NCBI GenBank assembly: GCA_944392985.1 | Contig: CALXYL010000012.1 | Coordinates: 1 to 64,000, forward strand | Source: an uncultured Spirochaetaceae bacterium | GTDB taxonomy: Bacteria; Spirochaetota; Spirochaetia; Sphaerochaetales; Sphaerochaetaceae | Reading direction: 5' to 3' | Length of the DNA stretch: 64,000 nt | Position numbers and translations under genes: made by a program | Shown: positions 17,334-51,188 of the stretch, piece after piece | Position numbering within the stretch: position 1 is the first letter of the stretch | Layout: each line of letters opens with the position of its first letter | Notes under the pieces: generated by a model | Told to the model about the DNA's origin: nothing | What the model saw: only the letters and a program-made list of their open reading frames with translations | Database searches by the model: none

Positions 17334-17345
17334 CCTACTTTTCCG

Positions 17346-17373
17346 GGTGCGGGGGCAGTGATGCCTCCGTACC
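17346..17373 (+). promoter_or_regulatory. Intercistronic stem-loop after the binding-protein gene
   Basis: GGTGCGGGGGCA (17346-17357), loop GTGA, TGCCTCCGTACC (17362-17373): a 12-bp stem with two G-T pairs and no following U-run. It is likely to stabilise the upstream message or reduce readthrough so that binding protein exceeds permease. Confidence 0.55.
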
Positions 17374-17388
17374 ATCATAGGGTTCCAT

Positions 17389-19148: not shown

Positions 19149-19151
19149 GGT

Positions 19152-22100
19152 ATGTTCGATAAAACCCTTCTTTTCAGGCTTTCCGGCTTTGATCCTGCTG
19201 TACCTGAGGTTCATAATGGCTCCGGTGAGCCGAACTTCCTCCGTTCTGTCGAATCCATCGACGATGAGAGGTTCGGCAAGGTTCTGAGATGCCATCCTTC
19301 CCAGCTTCTTGCCTATAGGGCTCCTGGAAATATCTATTCCGAAAGAGGCACGATCTCATTCTTCTGGAGGAGCAGGGAAGCGCTCGGGGAGACGGAATTC
19401 CCCCTTTTCAGAGTAGCCTTTGCCGATCATTCGAGCTGGGATGCGCTCTTTATCCGCATCGACTACAACGGGAGCGGCATCGATGCCTTTGCCACTGATA
19501 TCAATCTCTCAAGGCTCCGGCTGAGCCATCACTTCGATGTGCTTCCATCCCCTGATGAATGGATCCATATCATGTTCACCTGGGATGAGAATATCGGAGT
19601 GTCCCTCTTCGTCAACGGGGAATGCGTCGGGGAGATAAGGAAGAGGTCTCTTCTCTATGCGGGGCTCGACCAGTTCGGTACGCACTCGCGCATCATAAGC
19701 AATGCACAGGTCCAGTCGAGCTACAACTACATGAGGACCGGGGATTTCGCGGAGATCAGGATCTATGGCAGGATGCTTGGCTCAGAGGATGCAGCGCGCC
19801 TTGCAGCAGGGAAGGAGCCAGAGGTTTCCACAGATGGAATGAGGAGCCTTTCCGATCCTGCAGTCAGAGCTGAATGGGACAGCCGCTTCGGCTTTGACTG
19901 CCCTGCAGGGCCATACCATCTTACGCAGCGCTGCTATACCGTGCGCAAGGTCGAGATACATGAGGCGTATGACCATAAGCGCTGGTGGTGGAAGGCATGC
20001 GACGGGATCCGCGAGACGACATGGCCTGGCGTATACAATCGTTCCCGCCTTCCTGGTCGCCTTGACTACTTCGTGCTTCCTGACTGGGACTGCTACTCGG
20101 TATCGGGTAAGAAGATCACTTTCTTCACGCCCCGGGGCGAGGAGTTCAACTGCATTGCGATGTCTGGATCCGCCCATGGCATGATGCGCTTGCACACGAT
20201 CGGAGGGGAGACTCCTCTTGAAACGCGCAGGGAATCATCCGAAAGGAGCTTCCTCTGCCTTCCAGAGCCAATGAGGGAAGCCGCGATAGAGTTCGAGAAT
20301 GATGAAATCGAGGAACCGATTGGGGATATCTCGCTCTTTGATATCCATCCGGGGACTGTTCCGGCTGGAAGGGTGATCGAAAGCTATCATCTCACCTCTG
20401 CTGTTCCCGAAGGATATGAGGGCATCAATGCATTCATCAGAGGGCGCATGATGGAGGATGAGCGCTTCACTCTCTATCCCGGCTCTCCTGACAGGAACCC
20501 CTCTCTGCCACCGCTTCCATTCGTGAACATCGCGATCAGATACAGATCAGGGAGGGACAAGGGCCTTGACGGAGTGCTTGTCCGCCTGCCGGGTATAGGG
20601 AAGGGAGATGGGCTTTGCAAGGTCAATATCCAGGTCCGTGATCCCCTGTGGTGGTACCGTAATCTGATCAACGCCTCCTTCTCGATCAAGGAGGGCTCTG
20701 CAAAGGAAATCTTCCTCGATACAAGGGATCGCATACTTCCTGAGGGCGGGGTTCTGTACATGACGATTGCATCTTCCGAGGATCTTGATGCCTCATTTGT
20801 TTCCGGGCTTTCTGTGGACCTCGTGTTCAAGAGCAGGGAGGAGGCGAAGGCAGAGCATATTGCTGACAGGCTTACACAGGTCAGGGACAACTATGCCAAC
20901 CTCGTTGAGGAGAATCCCTCGGATGAGCGTTTCAATATGTTCCGCCGCTTCAAGGCGGATCTTGATGATCTTCTCGATGTTGATCCGGACAACAGGATTG
21001 CACAGGAATACAGATATGACAAATTCAAGGTGGAGGCGCCCTCGTTCGTCCAGAGCCAGTGTCCCGATAGCGTTCCACGCTGGGCATGGCGTCAGATTGA
21101 GTATATGGCGCGCGTCAAGCGCTTCCTTTCCTGGTGGATCGACAAGAGGCAGATTGGGAATGGTGAGTTCGGAGGAGGGCTTTCCGATGATGGTGATCTC
21201 ACAGCATGGTGGCCCGGTCCTGCAATCGCTGGATGCATGCCTGATAAGATCGCGCGCTCGCTGCGGACTGAGATGGAGGCGTTCTATGACCAGGGCATGT
21301 TCACGAATGGGCTCTGCTCCATACAGACGGATCAGCTGCACACCCTCGAGGAGGGGATCCAGGCCCTTGGTCAGTGCCTGACGCTCTTCCCTGATGATCC
21401 TCTTTACATCGAGAGGGCAATGGATAACTGCCGTGGTATAGGCTATGTCACAGGCTATACGGAGAAAGGGCATCGCCATTTCATGAGCGGCTACTACTCA
21501 GGAGTGCGCATCGCGATGGAGCATCCTTGGCGGTACAGTGCATCCGATTCGTTCCATGTGCTCCATCCCACGTATATGCTTGCGCGGTACAACGGATCCC
21601 CGAAGGCGAGGAAGCTGATCCTGGAGCTTGCGGATTCGATGCTCTGCCATTACTATGACGGACGCCTCCATGTGCTTGTCGATACTGTCGACGAGACGGA
21701 TCAGGTGCATGAGAGGACGAGGGAGTGGCCGCTCTTCTATGCTGCCTATGACCTTACAGGGGACAGGAAGTATCTTGAGCCGATTGATCCATCTCTATAT
21801 GCGCTGCCGCAGGACAGGCTCAAGGGAAAGGATCCTGAGGAATACACTGCAGATCGGTATGAAACACTTCTTCGCGATGCCGCGCTGAGGGAGTACATCA
21901 ATACCGACGGACAGCTCTGGGTGGATCGCTGTGTCATCGATATCTCCGCACTGCAGGAGGATAGATGCGGAGGAATTGCCCATATACGGTTCTCACTCTA
22001 TCCGAGGCACTTCATAAGATGGCGCTTCGATGAGGGGCAGGAGAGCGATGTCGCGATACTTGTGACAGAAGCTGATCCAACCCATCTTGTGTTCAGATCG

Positions 22101-22610
22101 TTCTGCCTTTCCGATTCCCCCGTGCATGCGGTGATGGTTCCTGACAACCTCAGGGAAGGCAGGTGGAGCATTACATCAGGAAGTGGGAAGGCCACTTTCG
22201 ATGCAAGGCGTTTCGGCCCCGGCGTGGATATTTCCTTCATGCCAGGATCCGATGAATACACGCTCAGCCTTGAAAAGGAGAAGGAGAGGAAGGAGCTTCC
22301 TGATCTAGCTATCTCGGCGAAGGATGTCATCATACGTCCCGACTGCATCCGCACCGTTGTCCATAACATCGGAGCAGTAGCGTCGGTCCGCACGCGCCTT
22401 GTGCTCAAGGATGCCTCCGGCAAGGAGCTGAGGCATAATCATATCCCGCCGATTGAGGCGCCCGTCGATCTCTATCCGAAGTCGATGGAGATACCTCTCT
22501 GGACGCGTGGCCTTGACCTGAAGGGCTGCACGATCGAAATCGATCCTGAGGGCGATGAGGAGGAGATCAGCAGGATGAACAACACAGTAAGGCTGGAGGA
22601 CGTGCTATGA
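19152..22610 (+). CDS. Giant cytoplasmic multidomain protein, putative glycoside hydrolase or lyase
   Basis: A 1152-aa protein without signal peptide or membrane helices. Residues 1-215 look like a LamG/concanavalin-type jelly roll (GTISFFWRS, WIHIMFTWDENIGVSLFVNG, AEIRIYGRML). Residues about 640-900 are helix-rich with many aromatic and acidic residues (NGEFGGGLSDDGDLTAWWPG), as in alpha/alpha-toroid lyases and hydrolases. Residues about 1048-1150 resemble a CARDB domain (VVHNIGAVASVRTRLVL and RMNNTVRLEDVL). The middle region (about 230-640) is unassigned. It lies 3 bases after the permeases and overlaps an isomerase gene, so it probably acts on the imported glycan. LamG and CARDB domains are normally extracellular, so a cytoplasmic location is odd. 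I do not know its reaction. Confidence 0.72.
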   Translation: MFDKTLLFRLSGFDPAVPEVHNGSGEPNFLRSVESIDDERFGKVLRCHPSQLLAYRAPGNIYSERGTISFFWRSREALGETEFPLFRVAFADHSSWDALFIRIDYNGSGIDAFATDINLSRLRLSHHFDVLPSPDEWIHIMFTWDENIGVSLFVNGECVGEIRKRSLLYAGLDQFGTHSRIISNAQVQSSYNYMRTGDFAEIRIYGRMLGSEDAARLAAGKEPEVSTDGMRSLSDPAVRAEWDSRFGFDCPAGPYHLTQRCYTVRKVEIHEAYDHKRWWWKACDGIRETTWPGVYNRSRLPGRLDYFVLPDWDCYSVSGKKITFFTPRGEEFNCIAMSGSAHGMMRLHTIGGETPLETRRESSERSFLCLPEPMREAAIEFENDEIEEPIGDISLFDIHPGTVPAGRVIESYHLTSAVPEGYEGINAFIRGRMMEDERFTLYPGSPDRNPSLPPLPFVNIAIRYRSGRDKGLDGVLVRLPGIGKGDGLCKVNIQVRDPLWWYRNLINASFSIKEGSAKEIFLDTRDRILPEGGVLYMTIASSEDLDASFVSGLSVDLVFKSREEAKAEHIADRLTQVRDNYANLVEENPSDERFNMFRRFKADLDDLLDVDPDNRIAQEYRYDKFKVEAPSFVQSQCPDSVPRWAWRQIEYMARVKRFLSWWIDKRQIGNGEFGGGLSDDGDLTAWWPGPAIAGCMPDKIARSLRTEMEAFYDQGMFTNGLCSIQTDQLHTLEEGIQALGQCLTLFPDDPLYIERAMDNCRGIGYVTGYTEKGHRHFMSGYYSGVRIAMEHPWRYSASDSFHVLHPTYMLARYNGSPKARKLILELADSMLCHYYDGRLHVLVDTVDETDQVHERTREWPLFYAAYDLTGDRKYLEPIDPSLYALPQDRLKGKDPEEYTADRYETLLRDAALREYINTDGQLWVDRCVIDISALQEDRCGGIAHIRFSLYPRHFIRWRFDEGQESDVAILVTEADPTHLVFRSFCLSDSPVHAVMVPDNLREGRWSITSGSGKATFDARRFGPGVDISFMPGSDEYTLSLEKEKERKELPDLAISAKDVIIRPDCIRTVVHNIGAVASVRTRLVLKDASGKELRHNHIPPIEAPVDLYPKSMEIPLWTRGLDLKGCTIEIDPEGDEEEISRMNNTVRLEDVL

Positions 22611-23401
22611 AGCTGTCATATACAACGCTCTCTGTGAAGGAAAGAAGCCTTGAGGAGGCTGTAGCTATTGCCAAGAGCCACCATCTTGATGGAATAGAGC
22701 TGCGCGGCATGGGAAACAGCCATATATCCGCAGAGTCATCCTTCTCGTACATTAGGGATGCGATCCATCTTCTGAAGGACAGCGGCCTGGAGGTTCCGTG
22801 CCTTACATCCTATGAGCATCTGGCACAGATTGATGGAAAGGGGGCGGGGAAGGAGGCTGACTCGCTTCTCCACACCATCGATCTTGCATCCTTCATAGGG
22901 GCAGGGAATGTCAGGGTGTTCATGGGTGCCCTTCCTCCCGGAGTGGAGATGGAAGCCGTGATGGACAATGTGCATTCCATAATGGAGCGCACAGCTGATT
23001 CCCCGGTCGGCATCATCATCGAGACCCATGACAGCGCACAGGATGGAAGGACGCTTTCCCGGATACTTGACGGAGCACCCGGATGCTATGGTGTTCTCTG
23101 GGATATAATCCATCCATGGATGATGGGTGAGGATTTCAGGGCGACCTGGCGATGTATCGGCAGCAGGGTCAGGCATATGCATATCAAGGATGTCAGGACA
23201 CGCCCTGAAGGCGGTTTCTATGACTATACTGCCATCGGTGACGGTATCATCCCCGTTTCCTCGATCGTCAGGCATGTCCTTGAGAATGGATATGATGGAT
23301 TCTTCTCGCTTGAATGGGAGCGGTCCTCCCCGGGCGCAGAGGGAATATCATTTGAGGACCAGCTCGGCTTGTATGCCGATTTCATGAGGAGCCTTGTATG
23401 A
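22607..23401 (+). CDS. Sugar phosphate isomerase/epimerase (AP-endonuclease-2 TIM barrel)
   Basis: A 264-aa single-domain protein of PF01261. Candidate metal ligands fall where the family places them: Glu in DGIELRGMG (residue about 29), Glu-His in GIIIETHDSAQDG, Asp-His in GVLWDIIHPW, His in RHMHIKDVR and Glu in GFFSLEWERS. Family members epimerise or isomerise ketoses and inosose-type compounds. It overlaps both neighbours by 4 bp (ATGA), between the giant protein and a diketogulonate-reductase homologue, so it likely handles an intermediate of the same pathway. Confidence 0.86.
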   Translation: MKLSYTTLSVKERSLEEAVAIAKSHHLDGIELRGMGNSHISAESSFSYIRDAIHLLKDSGLEVPCLTSYEHLAQIDGKGAGKEADSLLHTIDLASFIGAGNVRVFMGALPPGVEMEAVMDNVHSIMERTADSPVGIIIETHDSAQDGRTLSRILDGAPGCYGVLWDIIHPWMMGEDFRATWRCIGSRVRHMHIKDVRTRPEGGFYDYTAIGDGIIPVSSIVRHVLENGYDGFFSLEWERSSPGAEGISFEDQLGLYADFMRSLV

Positions 23402-24402
23402 GGGTAGCGTTTGAGGAGGCCAGAAAGGTCCTTGCTGAGAAGCTGGAGAAGCACGGAGTGCCTGCCTGGCAGGCGGAGAAAGTCGGATATGAGATGGCAA
23501 GGAATTCGCTTGAGGGCATCTATACCCATGGCCTTAACCGGTTTGAGCGGCTGGTGAGGAACATCGATGAGGGGATTGTCATTCCCGGAACGGAGCCTGA
23601 GCTGATCCATTCATTCGGTGCCATGGAGAACTACGATGGCAGGCTGGGCCTTGGGATCACGAACGCGCTTTTCTCCATGTCCCGCGCGATGGAGCTGGCC
23701 ACGGAGCACGGAGTGGGCATAGTCGCCCTCCGCAATACGAACCACTGGCTCCGCGCAGCAACGTATGGCTATCAGGCGGTAGAAGGCGGATTTGCGGCGA
23801 TGTGCTTCACCAATACGATTCCGAACATGCCTACATGGGGTGCCATTGACTCCCGTATCGGAAACAATCCATTCATGATGGCGTTCCCCAGGAGAAACGG
23901 CTCTCCGATCATTGTCGACTCGGCTATGTCACAGTTCTCATATGGTGCGCTTGAGCTTGCCAGGCTTGAGCACAGGACAATGCCCGTCGATGCAGGCTTT
24001 GACGAGAATGGAAGGCTCACAAAGGATCCTGATGCAGTCATCAGGACCAAGCGCATCATCCCTACAGGATACTGGAAGGGGGCGGCAATGTCCTTTGCCC
24101 TCGATATCTTCGCCTCTGCGCTGTCGATGGGTGCATCCGTGGCAGCCGTCGGACGTCTGGATGGCGATGAGCATGGTGTCAGCCAGTTCTTCATGGCGAT
24201 TGATTACAGGAAGATCTCAGATGAGGATGCAGTTGATGACATCGTCGAGGGAGCGATAGCGGATCTGAAATCCTCCATCCCATCTGATCCTGCGAGACCG
24301 ATCATCTACACAGGCGAGATGACCGGAAGGATAAGGGAGGAGAACCTGAAGGAAGGGATTCCCGCCGATGAGGGTGTCTGGCAACGCATCCTCTCCCTGT
24401 GA
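23398..24402 (+). CDS. dlgD: 2,3-diketo-L-gulonate reductase family dehydrogenase (YiaK/DlgD-like)
   Basis: A 334-aa NAD(P)H-dependent reductase of the LDH2/malate dehydrogenase fold. It matches E. coli YiaK closely along its length: THGLNRFERLV, the catalytic-His segment GIVALRNTNHWLR, WGAIDSRIGNNPFMMAFPR, DSAMSQFSYGALE and TGYWKGAAMSFALDI. YiaK reduces 2,3-diketo-L-gulonate to 3-keto-L-gulonate; here the true substrate may be another 2-keto or 2,3-diketo acid. It is the last gene of locus A, followed by a terminator. The family is firm, the exact substrate is inference. Confidence 0.88.
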   Translation: MRVAFEEARKVLAEKLEKHGVPAWQAEKVGYEMARNSLEGIYTHGLNRFERLVRNIDEGIVIPGTEPELIHSFGAMENYDGRLGLGITNALFSMSRAMELATEHGVGIVALRNTNHWLRAATYGYQAVEGGFAAMCFTNTIPNMPTWGAIDSRIGNNPFMMAFPRRNGSPIIVDSAMSQFSYGALELARLEHRTMPVDAGFDENGRLTKDPDAVIRTKRIIPTGYWKGAAMSFALDIFASALSMGASVAAVGRLDGDEHGVSQFFMAIDYRKISDEDAVDDIVEGAIADLKSSIPSDPARPIIYTGEMTGRIREENLKEGIPADEGVWQRILSL

Positions 24403-24407: not shown

Positions 24408-24435
24408 TGGCTGGGCTTTGTCCCAGCCATTTTTA
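24408..24435 (+). terminator. Terminator of locus A
   Basis: TGGCTGGG / CCCAGCCA form an 8-bp stem with loop CTTTGT, followed by TTTTT, 5 bases after the dlgD stop. Confidence 0.85.
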
Positions 24436-24447: not shown

Positions 24448-24527
24448 CAAACATCAGTTTGTGTTGCAAAATAAATCAATGGTGTTGTTTTGAACACTTC
24501 TGAATGCGATTTTGTTTCAAAACAAAA
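24448..24527 (+). promoter_or_regulatory. Cluster of palindromes upstream of locus B, probable operators
   Basis: The AT-rich 209-bp region before the DUF1537 gene holds CAAAC-ATCA-GTTTG (24448-24461) and a perfect palindrome TTTTGTTT-CA-AAACAAAA (24510-24527), with a further TTTTGAACA in between. The TTTCA/TGAAA half-site theme recurs in the palindrome before the locus B regulator (33749-33763). Regulator binding is inference. Confidence 0.5.
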
Positions 24528-24611
24528 CATGATGTGATTTCTATCAAATTTTATTGGCTTTTCTGTTTCTGTAATGATAGTCTTTCCCTCAGAGAAGGAG
24601 AGAAATGTAAA

Positions 24612-25880
24612 ATGTCATGTTCTAATTTGAAACACAATACTCCTTTTCTTGCGGTCATCGCAGATGATCTTACTGGAGCTCTTGATACAGGGATCCAGTT
24701 TGCGAATGCAGGCGCAAGAACGATGACCATCACAAAAGCTGATCCTCGGAGCCTGAGCGAGTATCTGGACGAAGGCTATGAAGTGATATCAATAGACGCA
24801 TCAACGCGGCATCTGGATGGGGAAGCGGCTGCACGCATCGTTTCCTCTGTGGTGCAGCAATGCCGTGCGGCGGGAGTCCGGTATCTCTACAAGAAAACGG
24901 ATTCCGTGCTCAGGGGGAATATCTCCGAGGAGATCAGGGCCTTCATGGAAGCCGATGGCGTCAGCGTCCTTCCATATGTTCCGGCTTTCCCTGATCTGGG
25001 AAGGACTGTTGAGCATGGTGTGCTGTATGTCAATGGAAAGCCGCTGCTGTGCACTGAGCTTGGCTGTGATCCATTCGACAGGGTGAGGAGCAGCAAGGTC
25101 TCCGATCTCTTCACCCAATCCGATGTGTCAGTCAGGGACTCAGTGGATGCCGGATACCTTCCACCCTCTGAGGAGGGGGATGGGATCGTCATCTATGATT
25201 CGAAGGATAACGAGGATCTCGACAGGATCGCAGCGGGACTGCTTTCCTCCGGGTTCAGTGCATTTGCGGGCTGCGCAGGCTTTGCAGATGCCCTTTCACG
25301 TGTATTCCCGTTCCCGAAGAAGCAGGAGAGCAGAGTGAAGGTCGGGCTTCCTATGCTGATCATCTGCGGCAGCGTGAACGAGGTATCGAAAAGGCAGATC
25401 CAGCATGAAGAGGACTGCGGAACGGAGCGCATAAGGCTCAATGAGTCGATGCTTTCTGATCCATCATTCTTCGACAGCGATAAGGGGCAGGAAATCATCG
25501 GGAGCATAGCATCGGGACTTTCGATGAATGGTGCTGTGATCGTTGACACAGAGGGGGAGAGGGAAGGTGCATCGCTTTCGGAGACGAATCTTGGGAATGC
25601 AGTCTCATCATCCCTCGGGGAACTTGCTGTCCGGCTTCTTGCGTCTGTTGACGGACTTGGGCTCTTCATCATCGGCGGCGATACGATGCTCAGCTTCCTG
25701 GATAAGGCAGGAAGCTCCGAGATAGAGCCGATAGAGGAGATAGAGAAGGGAATCGTCCTTTCCGTTCTGCATAAGGACGGCAGGGCGGTTCCGGTGATTT
25801 CGAAATCAGGAGGGTTCGGAGGGGAGGATATCCTCACGAAGATCCTTGATAAATACAGGAAACAGGAGGTTTCAATATGA
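24612..25880 (+). CDS. Four-carbon acid sugar kinase (DUF1537 family)
   Basis: A 422-aa two-domain kinase. The N-terminal domain (PF07005) has FLAVIADDLTGALDTGIQFA and YLYKKTDSVLRGN, the acid-sugar-binding part. The C-terminal nucleotide-binding domain (PF17042) contains LFIIGGDTMLSFL and VISKSGGFGGEDIL. Known members phosphorylate D-threonate, D-erythronate or related acids at O4. A PdxA2-type dehydrogenase at the other end of the same operon supports that role. The start at 24612 is in frame with an AGGAG 11 bases upstream; the open frame runs further 5' through the operator region, which is unlikely to be coding. Confidence 0.92.
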   Translation: MSCSNLKHNTPFLAVIADDLTGALDTGIQFANAGARTMTITKADPRSLSEYLDEGYEVISIDASTRHLDGEAAARIVSSVVQQCRAAGVRYLYKKTDSVLRGNISEEIRAFMEADGVSVLPYVPAFPDLGRTVEHGVLYVNGKPLLCTELGCDPFDRVRSSKVSDLFTQSDVSVRDSVDAGYLPPSEEGDGIVIYDSKDNEDLDRIAAGLLSSGFSAFAGCAGFADALSRVFPFPKKQESRVKVGLPMLIICGSVNEVSKRQIQHEEDCGTERIRLNESMLSDPSFFDSDKGQEIIGSIASGLSMNGAVIVDTEGEREGASLSETNLGNAVSSSLGELAVRLLASVDGLGLFIIGGDTMLSFLDKAGSSEIEPIEEIEKGIVLSVLHKDGRAVPVISKSGGFGGEDILTKILDKYRKQEVSI

Positions 25881-27505
25881 AGAGGAAGGTTACTGCAATA
25901 TCCCTGGCTATCCTTCTTGCATTGCTGATGGTACTTGTTGGATGCAGCAAGGAGGAGACTCCGGCGTCATCCTCCAAGGCTTCTGCCTCAACAAGCACAG
26001 CAGTGGCTGCGGATACATCCACACAGGATGAGCCGAGGACCTATTCATGGTTCCTCAGGAGCCAGTTCATCACATGGCTCAGGGATCTGAAGTGGTATGA
26101 TGTCGCGGAGGAGAGGACGGGAATCCACGTCGATTACGTCGAGGGACCGCTTGAGCTCAATGACACATTCAACGAAGTCGACCAGCGTCTCGCATCCGGA
26201 ACGCTTCCAGATGGAACGATGCTCCGCCTCGCACAGGCAAAGGTCTATGGAGCGCAGGGCGCATTCGTGGATCTCAGGCCATACATCGAGAAATATGCTC
26301 CGAACATCCAGGCATACCTTGATGCAAACCCTGACTATGAAAGGCTCATCTCTTCCGATGATGGCGCTATCTACGCGATGATCAGGGAGTCCCCGGTCCT
26401 TGCTGACTTCATCGGATACAGAGCAGATCATTTCAGGGCTGTCGGCATTGATCCTGCTGAGGTCACGACTGTAGAGGATCTCACTGAGGCGATGCGCGCA
26501 CTCAAGGCGTACTATGGCAAGGACAACCCGAACTACTATCCGTTCAGCGGAAGGGAGAATGCTCCTACAAGATTCGCATACCTCTTTGATGCGGCTTCAT
26601 ATGCGGATGCGGAAGGATCCAGCGGTATCTACTACTCCCATGAGAAGGATTACAGCTTCGATATCAAGGCACCAAGGGCTTATGAGTGGATCCAGACGAT
26701 AAAGACCTGGTACGATGAAGGGCTCATCAATCCCAGCTGGATCGATGGAACGAACACCGAAGGCGACTGGGAGTCCCAGATGCTCAGCGGCAATGCCTCC
26801 CTCTTCCTTGACTTCTACAACAGGGCAGAGTGGTTCATGACCAATGGCGGTCCTGACAATGATCCTGATTTCGATATGCAGGTGCTCCCATGGCTCGTTG
26901 ATGACGAGGGCAACATCCTCAAGCAGACATCGGCACTCCTCTGGAGATCTGACAATGCTGTTGCGATCAACGCATCCTGCGACGAGGAAACCATCAGGAC
27001 AATCCTCGAGTTCATCGATTACTTCTATTCAGAGGAAGGCATGATCCTTGCCAACTGGGGTGTCGAGGGCGAGAGCTTCAAGACGAATGAGGATGGCTCC
27101 AGGGAGTTCATCGTTGACTATACCGCTGAGGAATCGAAGCCAGAAGGTACGAAGAAGTGGTCATTCCTCTCCGATAGGCAGACTGTCTGCAAGCCTGTTG
27201 ATCAGGAAGCATTCTACGCATGGAACACTCCGCTCATCGCAGAGGCAGCTTCCAGGTATCTTGTGCCTGAGGCCCTTCTTGCCCGCCCAGTCCTTGTATA
27301 CACGACGGAGCAGGAGCAGGAGCTTTCAAACCTTGTTGCCAGCGTTTATAACGCTGAGCTCGCAGGTCTCACCGGATTCATCGTCGGCAATACTCCGCTC
27401 AATGAAGAGACATGGAACGCATTTGTCGAGCAGATGGATGCGCTTGGACTCCAGAGGATCGAGGATATCCAGTACGAGGCGTACAAGACGACCTTCGGAC
27501 TCTGA
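25877..27505 (+). CDS. ABC transporter binding lipoprotein, LplA/YtcQ type (locus B)
   Basis: A 542-aa lipoprotein: the signal peptide ends in a lipobox at LMVLVGCSKEE with the lipidated Cys near residue 23, followed by a Ser/Ala-rich linker. The mature part is the long type of solute-binding protein (about 500 residues) found with LplB/YtcP permeases, which in Bacillus import rhamnogalacturonan or other complex oligosaccharides. GGAGG lies 7 bases before the ATG, which overlaps the DUF1537 stop. A GC-rich hairpin follows the gene. The ligand is not determinable from sequence. Confidence 0.92.
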   Translation: MKRKVTAISLAILLALLMVLVGCSKEETPASSSKASASTSTAVAADTSTQDEPRTYSWFLRSQFITWLRDLKWYDVAEERTGIHVDYVEGPLELNDTFNEVDQRLASGTLPDGTMLRLAQAKVYGAQGAFVDLRPYIEKYAPNIQAYLDANPDYERLISSDDGAIYAMIRESPVLADFIGYRADHFRAVGIDPAEVTTVEDLTEAMRALKAYYGKDNPNYYPFSGRENAPTRFAYLFDAASYADAEGSSGIYYSHEKDYSFDIKAPRAYEWIQTIKTWYDEGLINPSWIDGTNTEGDWESQMLSGNASLFLDFYNRAEWFMTNGGPDNDPDFDMQVLPWLVDDEGNILKQTSALLWRSDNAVAINASCDEETIRTILEFIDYFYSEEGMILANWGVEGESFKTNEDGSREFIVDYTAEESKPEGTKKWSFLSDRQTVCKPVDQEAFYAWNTPLIAEAASRYLVPEALLARPVLVYTTEQEQELSNLVASVYNAELAGLTGFIVGNTPLNEETWNAFVEQMDALGLQRIEDIQYEAYKTTFGL

Positions 27506-27509
27506 TGCT

Positions 27510-27539
27510 GCATGGCTGGCCGGGGCAGCCCGGCCATGC
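27510..27539 (+). promoter_or_regulatory. Intercistronic stem-loop after the locus B binding protein
   Basis: GGCCGGG-GCAG-CCCGGCC (27518-27535) is a perfect 7-bp stem, extended by GCAT/ATGC across a bulge. A short CTCTTTAT follows, so it may be a leaky terminator or an mRNA stabiliser that keeps binding-protein message in excess. Confidence 0.6.
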
Positions 27540-27564
27540 CTCTTTATAGGAATTGGTGGATGCT

Positions 27565-28527
27565 ATGAAAAGAAAGAATAATGATACAAGGCTTCTTCCT
27601 CCTGCAGGTCTCGGAGAGAGGCTCAGGCGGGATGTGCTTCTTAACTGGAGGCTCTATGTCCTCCTTCTTCCCGGCGTTGTGAGCCTGGTTCTGTTCAAGC
27701 TGTTTCCTGTGGCAGGAATGGTCATAGCATTCCAGGATTTCAGCGCTTTCCGCGGTATAACAGGGAGCACATGGGTCGGCCTTGAGAACTTCCAGCGGAT
27801 GTTCACTGACAAGTACATGCTGACGCTTATATCAAATACGGTGATCATCGCCATACTGTCGATTGTCTGCGTATTCCCGATACCGATCATCTTCGCACTG
27901 CTTCTCAATGAGGAGCGCTCCCGTGTCGTAAAGAACAGCGTTCAGTCGCTCAGTTTCCTGCCGTATTTCATCTCATCGGCGGTTATGGTCAGCATCCTTG
28001 CCACGATGCTCAACCCTTCCACGGGTATCGTCAATGTCATCATACGCCATTTCGGAGGGGATGCTGTGAACTTCATGGCTCGTCCTGAGTGGTTCCGGCC
28101 GCTTTATATACTCCTTCAGATCTGGCAGACATTCGGCTACAACGCAATCATCTACATTGCCGGCATAACGGCAATCAACCCTGAGCTCTATGAAGCTGCA
28201 GAGGTCGACGGATGCCAGCGCTGGGGAAAGATGATCCATGTCACTATTCCCGGTATCTCAACATCCATCATCACGATGCTAATCATCAGCATCGGTCAGA
28301 TCTTCACGGTCCAGACCGAGCGTATCATCCTTATGTACAACCCGAGCAACGCCGCGACATCGGATGTGATACAGTCCTATGTCTACCGCATTGCGTTCCA
28401 GTCGCTTGGGTTCCCCGATTACAGCTACGGTACGGCTGTCAATCTCGTCAAGTCAGTGCTTGCTTTCATCCTTGTCATCATCGCCAACAAGCTCGCTGAC
28501 AGATTCGCAGAGACAAGGGTCTTCTAA
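27565..28527 (+). CDS. ABC transporter permease, LplB/YtePtype (locus B)
   Basis: A 320-aa inner-membrane protein with six predicted helices, the first near residues 29-50 (LYVLLLPGVVSLVLFKLFPV). The EAA loop is EAAEVDGCQRWGKMIHVTIP. The C-terminal IANKLADRFAETRVF is typical of the LplB group. The ATG at 27565 was chosen; an in-frame TTG at 27553 is the alternative. It partners with the next permease and the LplA-type lipoprotein. Confidence 0.93.
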   Translation: MKRKNNDTRLLPPAGLGERLRRDVLLNWRLYVLLLPGVVSLVLFKLFPVAGMVIAFQDFSAFRGITGSTWVGLENFQRMFTDKYMLTLISNTVIIAILSIVCVFPIPIIFALLLNEERSRVVKNSVQSLSFLPYFISSAVMVSILATMLNPSTGIVNVIIRHFGGDAVNFMARPEWFRPLYILLQIWQTFGYNAIIYIAGITAINPELYEAAEVDGCQRWGKMIHVTIPGISTSIITMLIISIGQIFTVQTERIILMYNPSNAATSDVIQSYVYRIAFQSLGFPDYSYGTAVNLVKSVLAFILVIIANKLADRFAETRVF

Positions 28528-28538
28528 GGAGGCAGGCA

Positions 28539-29408
28539 ATGAGACGCAGAATAGGTGCATTCGATATCATAAACACGCTGATCCTATCCATTGTCGGGTT
28601 GGTCTGCATCGTCCCGTTCCTTTATACGTTCTTCATCGCGATCAGCGATGGGAAGTTCCTGATCCGGGGTGATGTCTCGTTCTTCCCGAAGGGAGTGAAT
28701 CTGCAGTCGTTCATCTACGTATTCACGAACCCTCGCTTCGACATAATGACAGGAGTGCGCAACAGCGCGATATACACGATCCTTGGAACGATCGTTTCCG
28801 TGCTGCTGACATATTCAACGGCGTACGTGCTGACAAGGCCGAGGATAAAGTGCCGCTACCTCATAATGTCGCTTTTCGTCCTGACATGGGTATTCGATGC
28901 CGGAATGATTCCCCGCTACATCGCCTACAGCTCGCTGGGTTTCATCGACAACATCTGGGTCATGATCATACCCGATGCCATCAATACGCAGTATCTGATC
29001 ATCACGAAGGCATACCTTGAGGGAATGCCGAAGGAACTGGAGGAGGCGGCCATCGTCGATGGTGCAAATGACTTCTCCATACTCTCGAAGATATTCATTC
29101 CGGTTACCAAGCCGATCATCGCGACGATTGCACTCTTCAATGGTGTCGCGATCTGGAACCAGTACCTTGTGCCTCAGATGTTCCTCAAGACGAAGGAGCT
29201 CAAGACGATCCAGCAGGTGCTTGCCAACGTGACAATCGGTACTGAGGGAACGACATTCGCCAACACAATCATAAATGGCATCTCGCTCAATCAGCAGAAC
29301 ATGAAGGCCGCCGCGATCATCATCGCCATGCTGCCTATCGTAATCGCATATCCATTCGTACAGAAATACTTCAGGAATGGAATCCTCATCGGTTCGGTGA
29401 AGGGTTGA
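28539..29408 (+). CDS. ABC transporter permease, YtcP type (locus B)
   Basis: A 289-aa inner-membrane protein. The first helix lies at about residues 10-32 (NTLILSIVGLVCIVPFLYTF in part), and the EAA loop is EAAIVDGANDFSILSKIFIP. The C-terminus YFRNGILIGSVKG is the family ending. AAGGAGG lies 5 bases before the ATG, 11 bases after the previous stop. As in locus A, no ATPase gene accompanies the permeases. Confidence 0.93.
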   Translation: MRRRIGAFDIINTLILSIVGLVCIVPFLYTFFIAISDGKFLIRGDVSFFPKGVNLQSFIYVFTNPRFDIMTGVRNSAIYTILGTIVSVLLTYSTAYVLTRPRIKCRYLIMSLFVLTWVFDAGMIPRYIAYSSLGFIDNIWVMIIPDAINTQYLIITKAYLEGMPKELEEAAIVDGANDFSILSKIFIPVTKPIIATIALFNGVAIWNQYLVPQMFLKTKELKTIQQVLANVTIGTEGTTFANTIINGISLNQQNMKAAAIIIAMLPIVIAYPFVQKYFRNGILIGSVKG

Positions 29409-29421
29409 AAGGAGGTTTTCA

Positions 29422-30594
29422 ATGAAGAGAAACGCTATCGCGCTCAATACGCTTACAACAGATGGAAGGCTGTATACCAATCCGATTACAGGTGCGCTGG
29501 AATCGCTGCTTCCGAATGAACCGTTCGCATCATGCCACGCGGTGGATCTGCTGGAACTGCCCAATGGGGATATCCTTGCAGCATGGTTTGCCGGTTCCAG
29601 GGAGGGTTATGCGGATATCAGCATCGTGCTCTCCCGCCTCGATAAGGGCTCAGACAGATGGACGGAGCCTGTGAAGGTATCGGATGACGAGACAAGGAGC
29701 GAGCAGAATCCTTCTCTCTTCCTTAAGGACGACGGTGAGATCTGGCTTGTATATACTGCACAGCTTTCGAGGACTCCCGAGACGAAGCCCAATTTCAGCC
29801 TCCAGTGCACTGCGGAGATACGTGTGAAGAAGTCCTTTGACAACGGCCATACCTGGTCAGCGACCGAGACGCTCTTCTCCCGTCCTGGCTCATTCTGCCG
29901 CCAGAAGATACAGAAGCTCTCCAATGGCCGCTGGATCTTCGGAAACTGGATCTGCTTCCCTGATGAGACGCGCAACGGAAGCAACATCACTGTGATGCAG
30001 ATTTCCGATGATGAAGGGAAGAGCTGGAGGGAGGTTGTCGTTCCTGAGAGCGCCGGGCGTGTGCACGCGAACATCCTTGAGATGGGTGAGGGGCATCTTG
30101 TGGCTCTCCTGAGGAGCCGCTTTGCTGACTTTGTATACCGCTCTGTCTCCAATGACAATGGCGATACATGGTCCGTGCCGGAGAGGACTGAGCTGCCGAA
30201 CAACAACTCCAGCATCTCCGCCATCCGCCTCCAGAGCGGAGCCATTGCCATGGTCTACAATCCAGTAGGGTTCAGCTATTCGTCGGACAAGACGCTCTGG
30301 CCTGACCAGCGCTGCCCGGTTGAGGTGGGTATCAGCGAGGACGAGGGAATGACATGGAACTTCCGCCGCATCGTCGAGAACGGTGAGGGATTCACAGGAC
30401 GCTGGAATGATATAAACAACAGGCGCTATGAGTATCCTGTCATGATGCAGTGCGCTGATGGAACCATTTCAATCGCCTATACATGGGGCGGAAGGAAGAA
30501 CATCAAGTATGTCGAGGTGACAGAGGACTGGATCAGGGGAGCGAAGGTCCTCAAGGGCGTTGATGGCGATCCCCAGGCTGTCAGGCATTATTGA
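29422..30594 (+). CDS. Sialidase-fold (BNR repeat) glycoside hydrolase, cytoplasmic (locus B)
   Basis: A 390-aa beta-propeller protein of the BNR_2/sialidase superfamily with four Asp-box motifs: SFDNGHTW, SDDEGKSW, SNDNGDTW and SEDEGMTW. No signal peptide is present, so it should act on oligosaccharides already taken up by the adjacent importer. Sialidase-fold enzymes usually remove terminal acidic 2-keto-3-deoxy sugars such as sialic acid, Kdn, Kdo or, in related propeller families, Dha. The next genes are an alcohol dehydrogenase and a DHDPS/NAL-family lyase, which suits release of a 3-deoxy-2-ulosonic acid. No NanE or NanK is nearby, arguing against ordinary sialic acid. Confidence 0.85.
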   Translation: MKRNAIALNTLTTDGRLYTNPITGALESLLPNEPFASCHAVDLLELPNGDILAAWFAGSREGYADISIVLSRLDKGSDRWTEPVKVSDDETRSEQNPSLFLKDDGEIWLVYTAQLSRTPETKPNFSLQCTAEIRVKKSFDNGHTWSATETLFSRPGSFCRQKIQKLSNGRWIFGNWICFPDETRNGSNITVMQISDDEGKSWREVVVPESAGRVHANILEMGEGHLVALLRSRFADFVYRSVSNDNGDTWSVPERTELPNNNSSISAIRLQSGAIAMVYNPVGFSYSSDKTLWPDQRCPVEVGISEDEGMTWNFRRIVENGEGFTGRWNDINNRRYEYPVMMQCADGTISIAYTWGGRKNIKYVEVTEDWIRGAKVLKGVDGDPQAVRHY

Positions 30595-30608
30595 TCGGAG
30601 GATGGGAC

Positions 30609-31760
30609 ATGCTTGCAAAATACAGCCTCAAGCTGCCTAAGGCAGTCTATGCAGGGGAGGAGGCGGTGGACAACCTCGCCGCAATCCTCCAGTCAGAGAA
30701 AGCGGAACGTGTCGTGCTCTTCACTGATAAGGGCATTGAAGCAGCGGGGCTCTGCAGCCTTGTCACGGAGCGGATCACGAAAGCCGATGCATCCTTTTCC
30801 ATCATCAACGATATCCCTGCTGAGCCGGAATACTCCGCTGTTCAGCGCATTGCTGACCGCATCGGGCCTGACTGCCCCATGATAATAGCCCTTGGCGGCG
30901 GGAGCGTGATGGATACGGCGAAGCTCGTCTCTGTGCTTTCCGGCTGCACTGTCCGTGATCTTCTCGGCAACCCCAGGCTGGGAAGGAAGAGGGCATGCAC
31001 GATAATGATCCCAACGACGGCAGGGACGGGAAGCGAGGCAACGCCTAATGCGATAGTAGCGGTTCCCGAGGATGAGCTGAAGGTCGGCATCGTCAATGAC
31101 AGCATGATCGCCGATTACGTTATACTCGATCCTGTCATGATCCAGAGCCTTCCACGGCACATCGCGGCTGCTACAGGTCTTGATGCGCTTGCCCACGCGA
31201 TAGAGTGCTATACAAGCCTGAAGGCGAATCCCTTCTCCGACACGTTCGCTCTCAAGGCGCTTGCCCTGATCATGGGGAATATCGAGAAGGCATGTGATGA
31301 CATCTCGGCAATCGAGGAGAAGAGGATGATGCAGATCGCGGCATTCTATGCGGGCATTGCAATCACAAGCTCGGGAACGACAGCGGTCCATGCCCTCAGC
31401 TATCCTCTTGGAGGAAGATTCCATATCGCGCATGGCGTGTCGAATGCGATCCTCCTTTCGCCTGTGATGCGCTTCAATATGCCATACTGCCTTGACAGGC
31501 TCGCATCTGCATATGATGCTTCCTTCCCTGAAGGGGAGAGGGATCTCAGCAGAGAGGAAAAGGCAGAGGCTGTCATAACGCGGCTTGAGGAGATCGTCCG
31601 CCATCTTGGTATCCCGCGTTCCCTCCGGGACTTCGGAATAAAGGATGAGGATATCGATTCTCTTGCTTCATCCGCGCTTGAGGTACAGCGCCTGCTTGTG
31701 AACAATGCGCGCCCTGTATCCCTGGAGGATGCCAGAAGCCTTTATCTTGGACTTATGTGA
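30609..31760 (+). CDS. Iron-containing alcohol dehydrogenase (locus B)
   Basis: A 384-aa group III metal-dependent dehydrogenase. The dinucleotide-binding segment is IALGGGSVMDTAKL. The metal ligands are the Asp and His of TGLDALAHAIECY and the two His in LGGRFHIAHGVSNAI. It interconverts an aldehyde and a primary alcohol using NAD(P). It lies between the hydrolase and the lyase genes, so reduction of the lyase's aldehyde product is the simplest role. The start at 30609 has GGAGG 6 bases upstream. A paralogue holds the same position in locus C. Confidence 0.92.
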   Translation: MLAKYSLKLPKAVYAGEEAVDNLAAILQSEKAERVVLFTDKGIEAAGLCSLVTERITKADASFSIINDIPAEPEYSAVQRIADRIGPDCPMIIALGGGSVMDTAKLVSVLSGCTVRDLLGNPRLGRKRACTIMIPTTAGTGSEATPNAIVAVPEDELKVGIVNDSMIADYVILDPVMIQSLPRHIAAATGLDALAHAIECYTSLKANPFSDTFALKALALIMGNIEKACDDISAIEEKRMMQIAAFYAGIAITSSGTTAVHALSYPLGGRFHIAHGVSNAILLSPVMRFNMPYCLDRLASAYDASFPEGERDLSREEKAEAVITRLEEIVRHLGIPRSLRDFGIKDEDIDSLASSALEVQRLLVNNARPVSLEDARSLYLGLM

Positions 31761-31767
31761 GGAAAAC

Positions 31768-32676
31768 ATGATTGACAGCAGCATGATCAAGGGCATCATC
31801 GTCCCAGTCGTGACACCGATGCACGATGATGGTTCAATAAACACGGAGGAGCTGAAGAGGCAGACGGAACGTCTTATCCAGGCCGGAGTCCATGGCGTTT
31901 TCGCCTTCGGAACAAACGGGGAAGGGTATATCCTTTCCTCGGAGGAGAAGAGGATTGCACTGAAGGCCGTGATCGAAGCAGCAGGAGGCCGTGTTCCTGT
32001 CTATGCAGGTACGGGATGCATATCCACGAAGGAGACTGTGGAGCAGAGCCTGATGGCGGAGGAGATGGGGGCTGATGTCCTTTCTATCATCACTCCTTCA
32101 TTCGCGGCGGCGAGCCAGAATGAGCTCATCGCCCATTACAGAAAAGTTGCCTCAGCTGTGCATCTTCCGATCGTTCTCTACAATATCCCGGCGAGGACGG
32201 GCAATAAGCTCACTCCCGATACAGTCGCTCACCTTGCGGAAGTGGAGAATATCGTCGGTGCGAAGGATTCCAGCGGGGATTTCGCCAACATACTCTCCTA
32301 TATTTCCGCTTCACACAGGGTCAACCCGGATTTCAGGATCCTCTCCGGCAACGACCGCCTCATAATCTGGACGCTCATTGCAGGTGGTTGCGGAGGGATT
32401 GCTGGATGCGCGAATGTGTATCCTAAGACGATAGCATCGATCTACAGCCTCTTCCTGGAGGGACGCATTGATGAGGCGATAGCTGCCAATGAGAGCATCG
32501 GATCATTCAGGGAATGCTTCAGATACGGCAATCCAAATACGATAGTGAAGAAGGCCGTGGAGCTTCTTGGCTATGGTGTCGGTCCATGCCGTGCGCCTTT
32601 CAATGGTCTTTCCGATGAGGCGGTTGAGGCCATAAGGAAGGTTCTTGAGGAGAACCGCAGGAAGGGAATGGAATGA
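31768..32676 (+). CDS. DHDPS/N-acetylneuraminate lyase family protein (locus B)
   Basis: A 302-aa class I aldolase-fold protein. Family landmarks are PVVTPMHDDGSIN, GTNGEGYILS (the carboxylate-binding motif), the catalytic Tyr in VLYNIPARTGNKL and the Schiff-base Lys in IVGAKDSSGDF (about residue 170). Members condense or cleave pyruvate with aldehydes, or dehydrate sugar acids. No lysine-pathway gene is nearby, and the neighbours point to cleavage of a 3-deoxy-2-keto sugar acid into pyruvate plus an aldehyde. The start at 31768 follows GAGGAAA; Met at 31783 is also possible. The stop overlaps pdxA2. Confidence 0.88.
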   Translation: MIDSSMIKGIIVPVVTPMHDDGSINTEELKRQTERLIQAGVHGVFAFGTNGEGYILSSEEKRIALKAVIEAAGGRVPVYAGTGCISTKETVEQSLMAEEMGADVLSIITPSFAAASQNELIAHYRKVASAVHLPIVLYNIPARTGNKLTPDTVAHLAEVENIVGAKDSSGDFANILSYISASHRVNPDFRILSGNDRLIIWTLIAGGCGGIAGCANVYPKTIASIYSLFLEGRIDEAIAANESIGSFRECFRYGNPNTIVKKAVELLGYGVGPCRAPFNGLSDEAVEAIRKVLEENRRKGME

Positions 32677-33740
32677 ACAGGCCGATAGTAGCGATAACAA
32701 TGGGTGATCCCGCGGGGAATGGGCCTGAGATAACAGTCAAGGCACTGCTGCATAAGGAGATATATGATTCAGTCCGTCCTTTGGTCGTGGGTGATGCGAG
32801 GGTTATCAGGAGGGCAGCTTCCTTTGTCGGGTATCCCGATGTTCCTGTACGTATCTGCCGCAGTGTCAGCGAAGCCGCCTTTGAATACGGTACGATCGAT
32901 GTGCTTCATGAGGATCTGCTGGAAGATCCTTCATCTTTCCCGGTTGGAAAGGTCAGCGCCGAGGGTGGCCGTGCGGCATTCCTGTCCGTGAAGAAGGCGA
33001 TAGAGCTTGCCATGAGGGGATCCGTCGATGCGACCTGTACAAACGCGCTTAACAAGGAGGCGCTGAACCTCGCGCTGCAGCAGAGCAGAGGATCCTTTTC
33101 CGACGGGCATACGCATTTCGATGGCCACACTGAGATATACGCCACTTACACAGGCACGAAGCACTATGCGATGATGCTTGTTCATGGGGATCTGCGTGTT
33201 GTCCATGTATCGACGCACTGCTCGCTGAGGGAAGCCTGTGACAGGGTGAGGAAGGAGCGGGTCGGGGAGGTGATCCGCCTTGCCTGGGATGCGCTTCGCT
33301 CCATCGGCATTGAGAAGCCGAGGATCGCTGTAGCCGGGCTGAATCCGCATTCAGGAGAGCATGGCCTTTTCGGGAGGGAGGAGATTGATGAGATCATTCC
33401 CGCTATCGAGGAGGCGGTGAAGGACGGCATCGATGCAGTCGGACCTGTACCCCCTGACAGCGTATTCCCTGAAGCTCTTGGCGGCTGGTATGATGCCGTT
33501 GTCGCGATGTACCATGATCAGGGGCATATCCCTGTTAAGACGGTTGGCTTCGTCTATGATAGGGAGCGCGGTGAATGGAAGGCTGTGGAAGGGGTGAATG
33601 TCACCCTTGGCCTGCCGATAATCCGCACAAGCGTGGATCATGGAACGGGATTCGCTCTCGCAGGAACAGGAAGAAGCAGTGAGCTGAGCCTTGTCAATGC
33701 TGTTCTTTTCGCTGCATCGCTTGCGCATAGAAGGAAATGA
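32673..33740 (+). CDS. pdxA2: PdxA2-type 4-phospho-acid-sugar dehydrogenase
   Basis: A 355-aa member of the PdxA family, with AITMGDPAGNGPEI at the N-terminus, metal ligands in HVSTHCSLREA and VAMYHDQGHIPVK, and the substrate segment AGLNPHSGEHGLFGREE. PdxA oxidises 4-phosphohydroxythreonine in vitamin B6 synthesis. PdxA2 proteins encoded with DUF1537 kinases instead oxidise 4-phospho-threonate or -erythronate, giving DHAP and CO2. The operon context favours the second role. It is the last gene of the operon (ATGA overlap with the lyase). Confidence 0.9.
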   Translation: MNRPIVAITMGDPAGNGPEITVKALLHKEIYDSVRPLVVGDARVIRRAASFVGYPDVPVRICRSVSEAAFEYGTIDVLHEDLLEDPSSFPVGKVSAEGGRAAFLSVKKAIELAMRGSVDATCTNALNKEALNLALQQSRGSFSDGHTHFDGHTEIYATYTGTKHYAMMLVHGDLRVVHVSTHCSLREACDRVRKERVGEVIRLAWDALRSIGIEKPRIAVAGLNPHSGEHGLFGREEIDEIIPAIEEAVKDGIDAVGPVPPDSVFPEALGGWYDAVVAMYHDQGHIPVKTVGFVYDRERGEWKAVEGVNVTLGLPIIRTSVDHGTGFALAGTGRSSELSLVNAVLFAASLAHRRK

Positions 33741-33794: not shown

Positions 33795-35564
33795 ATGAGA
33801 CGTGTCAGGGCTCTCGGCATAGCACCATATGATGGGCTTGCCATCCAGCTCAGGAATGAGGCAAGGAAGCGCAGTGATATCGATATCGATGTCTATACGG
33901 GAGACCTGGAGGATGGCGTGGCAATCGCTCAGCGCCGCTTCTCCGACGGGTATGATGTCATCATCTCGCGAGGAGGTACCGCAGAGCTCCTGGAGGCTAG
34001 GGGCTTCCCTGTAATAGACATCTCCATTTCCCTCTATGATATCCTCCGCTCGTTGCGGCTGGCAGATGATGCGAAGAAGAAATATGCGATAATAGGCTTC
34101 CCGACCATCACGAAGAATGCGGTGTTCCTCAAGGAAGTGCTTTCCAACGGCATGGATATCGAGGTCATAACGACTGGAAGCGCTGAGGAATCTGAGGAGG
34201 CGATGAAGCGCCTCAGGCAGGAAGGAGTCACGAATATCGTCTGTGATATGACGGGTGCAAGGATAGCCCGTACATACAAGCTGAACTTCATTCTGATAAA
34301 CAGCGCTTCTGAAAGCATCTCTGCCGCCCTTGATATGGCGGTGAAGCTCGGACGGCAGCACGTTGAGAGGAATGGCCTGATAAAGTCTTTCTTCGGAATC
34401 GTGGATGGCTGTCCCAATCCGATCGTGGTTTTCACGTCTGCAGGAATTGCGAATCCAGACAAGACCCGGGATATGCCGGAAGGCTTCCTGAATGCGATGA
34501 AGCAGAATGCCGCAGCACTGAAGCCTGGAGATGTGAGCAGCCTGGATTATGATGATTACGGTACGCTCTACAGCGCCATAGGCCGAAAGCTCGATGCTGG
34601 TGGCAATCCCATTGCCGCGTATTATATCCGCCGTACACGCTTTCCCTTCATCCTTGAGGAAAGCGGTATCTCTGTACGCAATTCACGCCGGGCGACCATT
34701 GAGTATGAGAAGAGCTTCTTTGCTGTGACGAATGCCTCCGCCCGGGAGATCGACATCCTCGATTCGTTTGCCGAAAGGGATTATCCGGTGATGATCATCG
34801 GGGAGCCTGGCACAGGGAAGGGGCCTCTTTCGCAGTACCTCTACATCTCATCAAAGCATTCGGGGGAGCCTCTTTATGATATTGACTGCGGCATTGCAGG
34901 AAAGAGGACACCTGAATTCATCAGGACGCTCTACCGCAATGCGCCAGAGCTGAAGGCTGTGTTCAATCTGAAGAACATCAGCGAGCTTGATGCCGACACA
35001 GTCGATGAGCTGATAGAGCTCAATGAGGAGTACAAGCTCGGATCCAGGGCGTATATCATTGCATCCGCGACGATACACAGAGCAGAGCCTCTTGTCGCTC
35101 CCTGCCTGAAGTTCATCAACCGCCTGCAATGCATGACGCTGACGACAACGCCTCTGAGGGAGCATATTGATGATATCGCGAGCATCGCGAATATCTATAT
35201 CAACTTCATCAACAGGACGCAGGGATCGAGCGTGCTGACGATCGACGAGAAGGCCTTTGAGATAATGCGCAGGCATGACTGGCCATACAACAACGATGAG
35301 CTTGCACGCATACTGCGAAGGCTGACGGCCTCTGCCGGGCATGATGTGATAACAGCAGATGATATGAGTGCAGCGATCGCAGAGGAGAAGAGGCTGTATG
35401 CCCCTGCCGAAAGGAGCTTCCGTTACGATGGCAGGAGCTTGAAGGAGATCGAGCGCGATATCGCCGAAGCGGTGCTTGAGGAAGAGGATGGCAACAGGAC
35501 GATCACTGCCAGAAAGCTCGGAGTCAGCCGGTCAACGCTCTGGAGGATGCTTCAGAACGAGTGA
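33795..35564 (+). CDS. PrpR-like regulator with degenerate sigma-54 AAA+ domain
   Basis: A 589-aa protein. Residues 1-190 are a PrpR_N-type ligand-binding domain (VIISRGGTAELLEARGFPVI). The AAA+ segment keeps Walker A (IIGEPGTGKG, about residue 336) and the TTPLREHIDDIA region. It has no GAFTGA loop, and the Walker B LDEI is replaced by FNLKNIS. The C-terminal Fis-type helix-turn-helix is TARKLGVSRSTLWRML. Without GAFTGA it should not activate sigma-54 polymerase, so direct control of ordinary promoters is more likely. It directly follows the locus B operon and probably senses a sugar acid or its phosphate. The stop overlaps the convergent decarboxylase by 13 bp. Confidence 0.85.
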   Translation: MRRVRALGIAPYDGLAIQLRNEARKRSDIDIDVYTGDLEDGVAIAQRRFSDGYDVIISRGGTAELLEARGFPVIDISISLYDILRSLRLADDAKKKYAIIGFPTITKNAVFLKEVLSNGMDIEVITTGSAEESEEAMKRLRQEGVTNIVCDMTGARIARTYKLNFILINSASESISAALDMAVKLGRQHVERNGLIKSFFGIVDGCPNPIVVFTSAGIANPDKTRDMPEGFLNAMKQNAAALKPGDVSSLDYDDYGTLYSAIGRKLDAGGNPIAAYYIRRTRFPFILEESGISVRNSRRATIEYEKSFFAVTNASAREIDILDSFAERDYPVMIIGEPGTGKGPLSQYLYISSKHSGEPLYDIDCGIAGKRTPEFIRTLYRNAPELKAVFNLKNISELDADTVDELIELNEEYKLGSRAYIIASATIHRAEPLVAPCLKFINRLQCMTLTTTPLREHIDDIASIANIYINFINRTQGSSVLTIDEKAFEIMRRHDWPYNNDELARILRRLTASAGHDVITADDMSAAIAEEKRLYAPAERSFRYDGRSLKEIERDIAEAVLEEEDGNRTITARKLGVSRSTLWRMLQNE

Positions 35565-51187: not shown

Positions 51188-51188
51188 G

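Follow-up and report, generated by a model that had tools for sequence, protein, structure and literature searches.

We identify a compact operon, locus B, in a 64,000-nucleotide stretch of DNA from an uncultured Spirochaetaceae bacterium (contig CALXYL010000012.1, positions 1 to 64,000; hereafter the window). The host is a gut bacterium, and many others from the gut carry the gene set as a block. Locus B brings known enzyme families together in a new way. We propose that it encodes cytoplasmic catabolism of a 3-deoxy-2-heptulosaric acid in ketosidic linkage, most likely 3-deoxy-lyxo-heptulosaric acid (Dha) of rhamnogalacturonan II (RG-II). An ABC importer would take up a small acidic oligosaccharide, for example a fragment joining Dha to galacturonic acid (Dha-GalA) or arabinofuranose (Araf-Dha), and a BNR_2 hydrolase would release the free acid. 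An enzyme of the dihydrodipicolinate synthase (DHDPS) family could then split the acid into pyruvate and the four-carbon tartaric semialdehyde, for reduction to D-threonate by an iron-type alcohol dehydrogenase (Fe-ADH). A DUF1537 kinase would convert D-threonate to D-threonate 4-phosphate, and PdxA2 would oxidise and decarboxylate this product to dihydroxyacetone phosphate (DHAP) and CO2.

A route from a seven-carbon (C7) ulosarate through D-threonate to DHAP is the best reading of the core and more likely right than not, and we regard Dha as its main natural substrate with close to even confidence. The sequence data directly show the genes, their conservation as a block, the active-site residues, the operator, and the neighbours. 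The D-threonate step is known for the DUF1537 and PdxA families; which acid is used, and in what sequence the first three enzymes act, we infer. No Dha catabolic route was found in the literature searched, where only reviews or unrelated papers matched. If right, this proposal would supply a complete Dha route from RG-II, the most complex pectin, with D-threonate as a testable intermediate, a function for a large unannotated sialidase-like family of Clostridia and Spirochaetia, and a genomic marker for RG-II scavenging.

Organization and conservation of locus B

The genes that an earlier note on this DNA had grouped as an operon are all present on one strand, tightly packed, with neighbours overlapping or at most ~55 bp apart. 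We place the start of locus B at the kinase gene because a hairpin and T run close the upstream operon. GGAG precedes the kinase start at 24612, and an in-frame ATG also lies upstream at 24504.

24408 to 24435, + strand: intrinsic terminator of the upstream operon, GGCTGGGCTTTGTCCCAGCC plus a T run; hairpin read from the sequence, dividing locus A from locus B
24513 to 24529, + strand: conserved operator-like site TGTTTCAAAACAAAACA (consensus TGTTTCAnnnTGAAACA), 99 bp ahead of the kinase
24612 to 25880, + strand: DUF1537 four-carbon acid sugar kinase, probably D-threonate kinase (PF07005 and PF17042)
25877 to 27505, + strand: lipoprotein solute-binding protein of an LplA-type ABC importer (lipobox LVGC; solved relatives)
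27553 to 28527, + strand: ABC permease, LplB type (PF00528)
28539 to 29408, + strand: ABC permease, LplC type (PF00528)
29422 to 30594, + strand: BNR_2 sialidase-fold hydrolase, candidate cytoplasmic 3-deoxy-2-ulosarate glycosidase (PF13088, 198 bits)
30591 to 31760, + strand: Fe-ADH, candidate semialdehyde reductase (PF00465 and PF25137)
31768 to 32676, + strand: DHDPS-family pyruvate aldolase, candidate ulosarate aldolase (PF00701, 235 bits)
32673 to 33740, + strand: PdxA2-type oxidative decarboxylase, predicted products DHAP and CO2 (PF04166)
33795 to 35564, + strand: PrpR_N/AAA-like/Fis regulator without GAFTGA (PF06506 and PF02954)

Querying 85,000 species genomes with the hydrolase, we obtained 55 close loci, which show 47–72% identity in alignment A1 and belong to Spirochaetales, Lachnospiraceae, Oscillospiraceae, and Erysipelotrichaceae. 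In 39 of them the four core genes (kinase, Fe-ADH, aldolase, and PdxA) are all found no more than ~10 kb from the hydrolase gene, so that the gene set is not a random grouping and the operon is confirmed; the majority of the remaining 16 are interrupted by contig ends. The locus L156 has hydrolase, kinase, and PdxA genes and no recognisable module-type Fe-ADH or aldolase. Gene order within the module is shuffled between relatives, the core enzymes stay grouped across phyla, and the importer varies, being LplABC in 26 loci and elsewhere TRAP, or CitMHS with a Na/Ca exchanger; the exchanged importers are all suited to anionic substrates. Because gene order shuffles and the importer changes, the block is held together by function.

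In four relatives (L077, L081, L082, and L087) the module comes with esterases of the feruloyl/PHB type as well as with a CitMHS transporter and a Na/Ca exchanger. The CitMHS and exchanger pairing suggests import of a metal-carboxylate complex and export of calcium.

The importer of locus B is of an acidic-oligosaccharide type, judging from the best solved relatives of its solute-binding protein: 5xs8, 5gub/5gx6-8, and AlgQ1/AlgQ2. Proteins of the 5gub type bind unsaturated acidic disaccharides.

Catabolic enzymes and their families

The hydrolase (390 aa) has no evident signal peptide and no CBM-like domain. Its structure model (pLDDT 92) is a six-bladed propeller of sialidase fold, with the GH33 sialidase 1eus as best fold match (TM 0.70). 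Residues H39, E61, D65, H215, R231, R297, and Y338 are invariant. As in GH33, R231, R297, and Y338 align with the sialidase Arg, Arg, and Tyr, but the position of the Glu that partners Tyr in sialidases holds H215 (Gln in distant relatives); the third Arg of the triad was not alignable by HMMER, its position apparently being H39. Distant BNR_2 relatives keep H39, E61, D65, N96, R231, R297, and Y338, with R358 in most, and differ at the module-specific H215, Q161, Q128, and S266. In the inverting GH181 sialidases, Tyr is replaced by Gln and a CBM-like domain is present (PMC10067855). We rejected GH181, since the hydrolase shares the six-bladed fold but retains Y338 and has no CBM domain. From these residues the hydrolase would work like a ketosidase on 2-keto-3-deoxy acids, outside canonical GH33, GH181, and GH143.

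In the aldolase, the Schiff-base Lys K166 and Tyr Y138 (26 sequences) and R143 are invariant. In DHDPS, the Arg of the YNxPxRT motif binds the carboxylate of aspartate semialdehyde; the aldolase keeps this Arg as R143, in the DHDPS-like motif YNIPART, whereas the proton-relay residues, the Thr pair of GTTGE and the tyrosines of TPYY, are altered, with GTNGE and TPSF in their place. The kept Tyr, Lys, and Arg with altered relay motifs are as expected if the enzyme has exchanged aspartate semialdehyde for a different acid semialdehyde of four carbons. A housekeeping DapA was rejected because of these altered residues and because another protein of the genome matches DHDPS more strongly (334 versus 235 bits); the aldolase lies only just above the TIGR00674 cut-off (207.9 versus 206.15). 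An NanA-type lyase was also rejected, the NanA models scoring 133.7 and 151.5 against cut-offs of 382 and 281.

These results bear on whether locus B might be a sialic-acid module for N-acetylneuraminic acid (Neu5Ac) or KDN, with the DHDPS-family enzyme as N-acetylneuraminate lyase. The sialidase fold of the hydrolase and the lyase superfamily of the aldolase are shared with Neu5Ac catabolism (sialidase, YhcH anomerase, NanA aldolase), as is an optional anomerase of the DUF386 (YhcH) family, whose gene occurs in seven relative loci. In Neu5Ac catabolism YhcH opens the sugar so that the aldolase can act on it (PMC8141875), and we count the DUF386 genes of the relatives in favour of the proposed Dha module. 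Neu5Ac catabolism, however, continues with amino-sugar steps where locus B has the kinase and PdxA2, which a sialic-acid module leaves unexplained; there is no ManNAc epimerase or kinase, and the low NanA scores and the YNIPART motif further argue against it. We consider this explanation extremely improbable.

The Fe-ADH has invariant metal ligands D198, H202, H267, and H281. The top NCBIfam model for the kinase is D-threonate kinase (183.7 bits), followed by 3-oxo-tetronate kinase (74), both under cut-off; the closest PDB entries to PdxA are 2hi1, 4jqp, and 6e85, D-threonate 4-phosphate dehydrogenase. Zhang et al. in 2016 reportedly described conversion of D-threonate to DHAP and CO2 by a DUF1537 kinase (DtnK) and PdxA2. 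Locus B likewise pairs a PF07005 and PF17042 kinase with a PdxA2-type dehydrogenase, and its nearest NCBIfam and PDB relatives are D-threonate enzymes. The DtnK/PdxA2 pathway is fed by uptake of free tetronate, whereas locus B would be fed by hydrolase, aldolase, and reductase.

An alternative is that two unrelated short routes share one operon, with the kinase and PdxA2 using free D-threonate and the hydrolase, aldolase, and Fe-ADH handling another 2-keto-3-deoxy acid, for example one giving pyruvate and glycolaldehyde or glyceraldehyde, the aldehyde then being reduced to an alcohol. DUF1537/PdxA2 pairs suffice alone for D-threonate, the Fe-ADH is closest to FucO-type reductases, and one relative locus (L165) has kinase and PdxA without Fe-ADH or aldolase. 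Set against this, the four genes are grouped across phyla despite shuffled order, also where the hydrolase is missing, and we judge a two-route operon distinctly unlikely. The sequence of hydrolase, pyruvate aldolase, aldehyde reductase, tetronate kinase, and PdxA2 deduced in the earlier note is well supported by conservation and residues.

A precedent for this sequence is the glucarate/galactarate pathway GarL-GarR-GarK, in which a 3-deoxy-2-ulosarate is split by an aldolase into pyruvate and an acid semialdehyde, followed by a reductase and a kinase. Locus B follows the same logic as a seven-carbon counterpart, but its substrate would be one carbon longer, every enzyme family is different, and the end products would be DHAP and CO2.

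Dha and competing substrates

Stereochemistry provides independent support for Dha. Fischer analysis of cleavage and reduction yields D-threonate from Dha, the substrate assigned to DUF1537/PdxA pairs, and narrows the intermediate from the threonate or erythronate first suggested to D-threonate; the same procedure applied to 3-deoxy-D-manno-octulosonic acid (Kdo) gave the expected D-arabinose.

Genomic context also points to RG-II. The reference enzyme is BT1020 (GH142-GH143) of Bacteroides thetaiotaomicron, which acts on RG-II chain D and whose N-terminal half belongs to GH143, which we take from CAZy to be the Dha hydrolase family. GH143 has been tied to RG-II debranching (PMC7922503). In one relative, L042, a BT1020-type gene (PF24067) begins one base past the hydrolase stop, its product 39% identical to the window's own homologue; in another, L044, such a gene lies 2.7 kb downstream of the hydrolase gene. 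GH143-type genes are uncommon: among the genomes sampled, 3 of the 297 from the spirochaete class and 9 of the 246 from L042's order carry one. The hydrolase gene of L049 has GH28, GH88/105, and GH43 genes for neighbours, and the GH78-fused distant relatives of Bacteroides described below add to this RG-II context.

The window's homologue lies in a second cluster, locus C (47205 to 60769), 20 kb from the locus B hydrolase. This protein (53449 to 55359) is GH143-type, carrying PF24067 and matching residues 28-612 of 5mqr (BT1020) with E 6.5e-84; the earlier note was silent on this cluster with its Dha-hydrolase family member. Locus C further encodes a fucose isomerase, LacI regulator, ABC importer, distant Fe-ADH, DHDPS-family enzyme, GDSL esterase, MDR dehydrogenase, nitroreductase, and PfkB kinase. 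GH143-type genes are beside or close to DHDPS-family genes here and in L116, L118, L119, and L140, a proximity that supports ulosonate or ulosarate substrates for the GH143-type family as well. Locus C could be a Kdo (D-arabinose) route or a second Dha route. We think it unlikely, though worth stating, that the window holds two parallel RG-II modules, with locus B taking Dha through D-threonate to DHAP and locus C taking Kdo through D-arabinose to a pentulose phosphate by means of its GH143-type hydrolase, DHDPS-family aldolase, Fe-ADH, MDR dehydrogenase, PfkB kinase, and nearby L-fucose/D-arabinose-type isomerase. If so, a small-genome spirochaete would take up both diagnostic RG-II sugars and break them down in the cytoplasm.

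In L118 and L119, the genes after the GH143-type gene encode a DHDPS-family enzyme, a mandelate racemase-like protein, a 2-hydroxyacid dehydrogenase, and a second DHDPS-family enzyme, and the GH143 product there would take a different downstream route.

Kdo might also be the sugar that the locus B hydrolase itself frees, its source being RG-II chain C; pyruvate and D-arabinose would then result, and the kinase and PdxA2 would have another role. Distant BNR_2 domains are fused to GH78 alpha-L-rhamnosidase in Bacteroides (L094-L096), in one case (L095) with genes for an apiosidase, GH95, GH28, and a DUF3826 protein nearby, an arrangement like that of the BT1012-BT1021 RG-II locus. The fusion suits the rhamnose-Kdo (Rha-Kdo) linkage of chain C, to which we assign it by analogy with BT1020 (arabinofuranosidase plus Dha hydrolase, chain D), and it is a candidate Rha-Kdo enzyme. 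Module and GH78-fused enzymes differ at H215/Q, S266/D, Q128/W, and Q161/N, however, and the DUF1537/PdxA2 route cannot take D-arabinose; Kdo is a very unlikely substrate of locus B.

Several observations weigh against the C7 route from Dha as proposed. The hydrolase lies outside the recognised Dha-hydrolase family: an initial weak match to 5mqr (E 0.036) was lost in the profile search, where 5mqr is not among the matches listed, no PF24067 was found, and the GH143 assignment was dropped, leaving a BNR_2 family different from BT1020. Canonical GH33 fits by fold and was likewise rejected, for H215 in place of Glu and an apparently incomplete Arg triad. GH143-type genes are present in only 4 of 50 module genomes, and because this co-occurrence is weak we use the GH143 evidence as adjacency only; locus C, of ulosonate type, might itself be the Dha cluster. 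The kinase (183.7 bits) misses the D-threonate kinase equivalog cut-off of 450 bits and PdxA (325.4) the D-threonate 4-phosphate dehydrogenase cut-off of 583 bits, although D-threonate models are nevertheless best or second-best in the NCBIfam sets for both. Three loci with full flanks (L049, L061, and L089) have the hydrolase and no core alongside. Conversely, the core also occurs without a BNR hydrolase (L163, L164, L166, L169, L171, L174, L175, L177, and L178), and commonly so in Spirochaetia, with TRAP, opp-type ABC, Gfo/Idh/MocA, M24 peptidase, aminotransferase, amidohydrolase, or 2-hydroxyacid dehydrogenase genes as neighbours. Some hydrolase loci have feruloyl-esterase-like genes, and RG-II leaves these esterases unexplained. 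A xylo-configured heptulosarate likewise yields D-threonate, so that the Fischer argument does not fix the C4 configuration.

The hydrolase-free cores with their TRAP, opp-type ABC, Gfo/Idh/MocA, M24 peptidase, or amidohydrolase neighbours, the esterases, and the xylo isomer are what would be expected if the core enzymes act as proposed on a C7 ulosaric acid that is not Dha or is differently bound; several conjugates would then exist, with ester, amide, and glycoside forms elsewhere, and the BNR_2 hydrolase would free just one. Dha is favoured instead by the GH143-type neighbours and by the RG-II loci, and we know of no other common natural 3-deoxyheptulosarate, which also counts against this alternative; we hold it to be somewhat unlikely. 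The hydrolase-free cores and esterase neighbours do imply that the acid must exist in further bound or free forms besides the hydrolase substrate, and hence probably enters cells in several forms, RG-II being perhaps only one source. The Dha reading of the earlier note is partly upheld, by D-threonate stereochemistry and the RG-II context of relatives, and partly weakened, by the family of the hydrolase and by cores that occur without it.

Regulation and neighbouring genes

The regulator at 33795 to 35564 belongs to the locus B unit; PrpR_N/Fis homologues lie near the module in 37 loci, mostly divergent from the kinase. In 31 of 32 loci a copy of the palindrome TGTTTCAnnnTGAAACA that matches at 11 or more of 14 positions stands upstream of the kinase, and the window copy gave p ~0.003 in a shuffled control. 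Sigma54 control was rejected: GAFTGA is missing from the AAA-like part of the window regulator and of 27 of 27 long homologues, and a pattern search found no -24/-12 site. Since this AAA-like part is without GAFTGA in all 27, the regulator is probably not a sigma54 activator, and PrpR_N regulators beside the palindrome probably form a sigma54-independent family.

Upstream of the terminator, locus A (16029 to 24402) encodes an ABC importer, a 1152-aa LamG protein, a xylose-isomerase-like TIM barrel, and a YiaK-type 3-dehydro-L-gulonate 2-dehydrogenase that passes its NCBIfam cut-off (377.8 versus 316).

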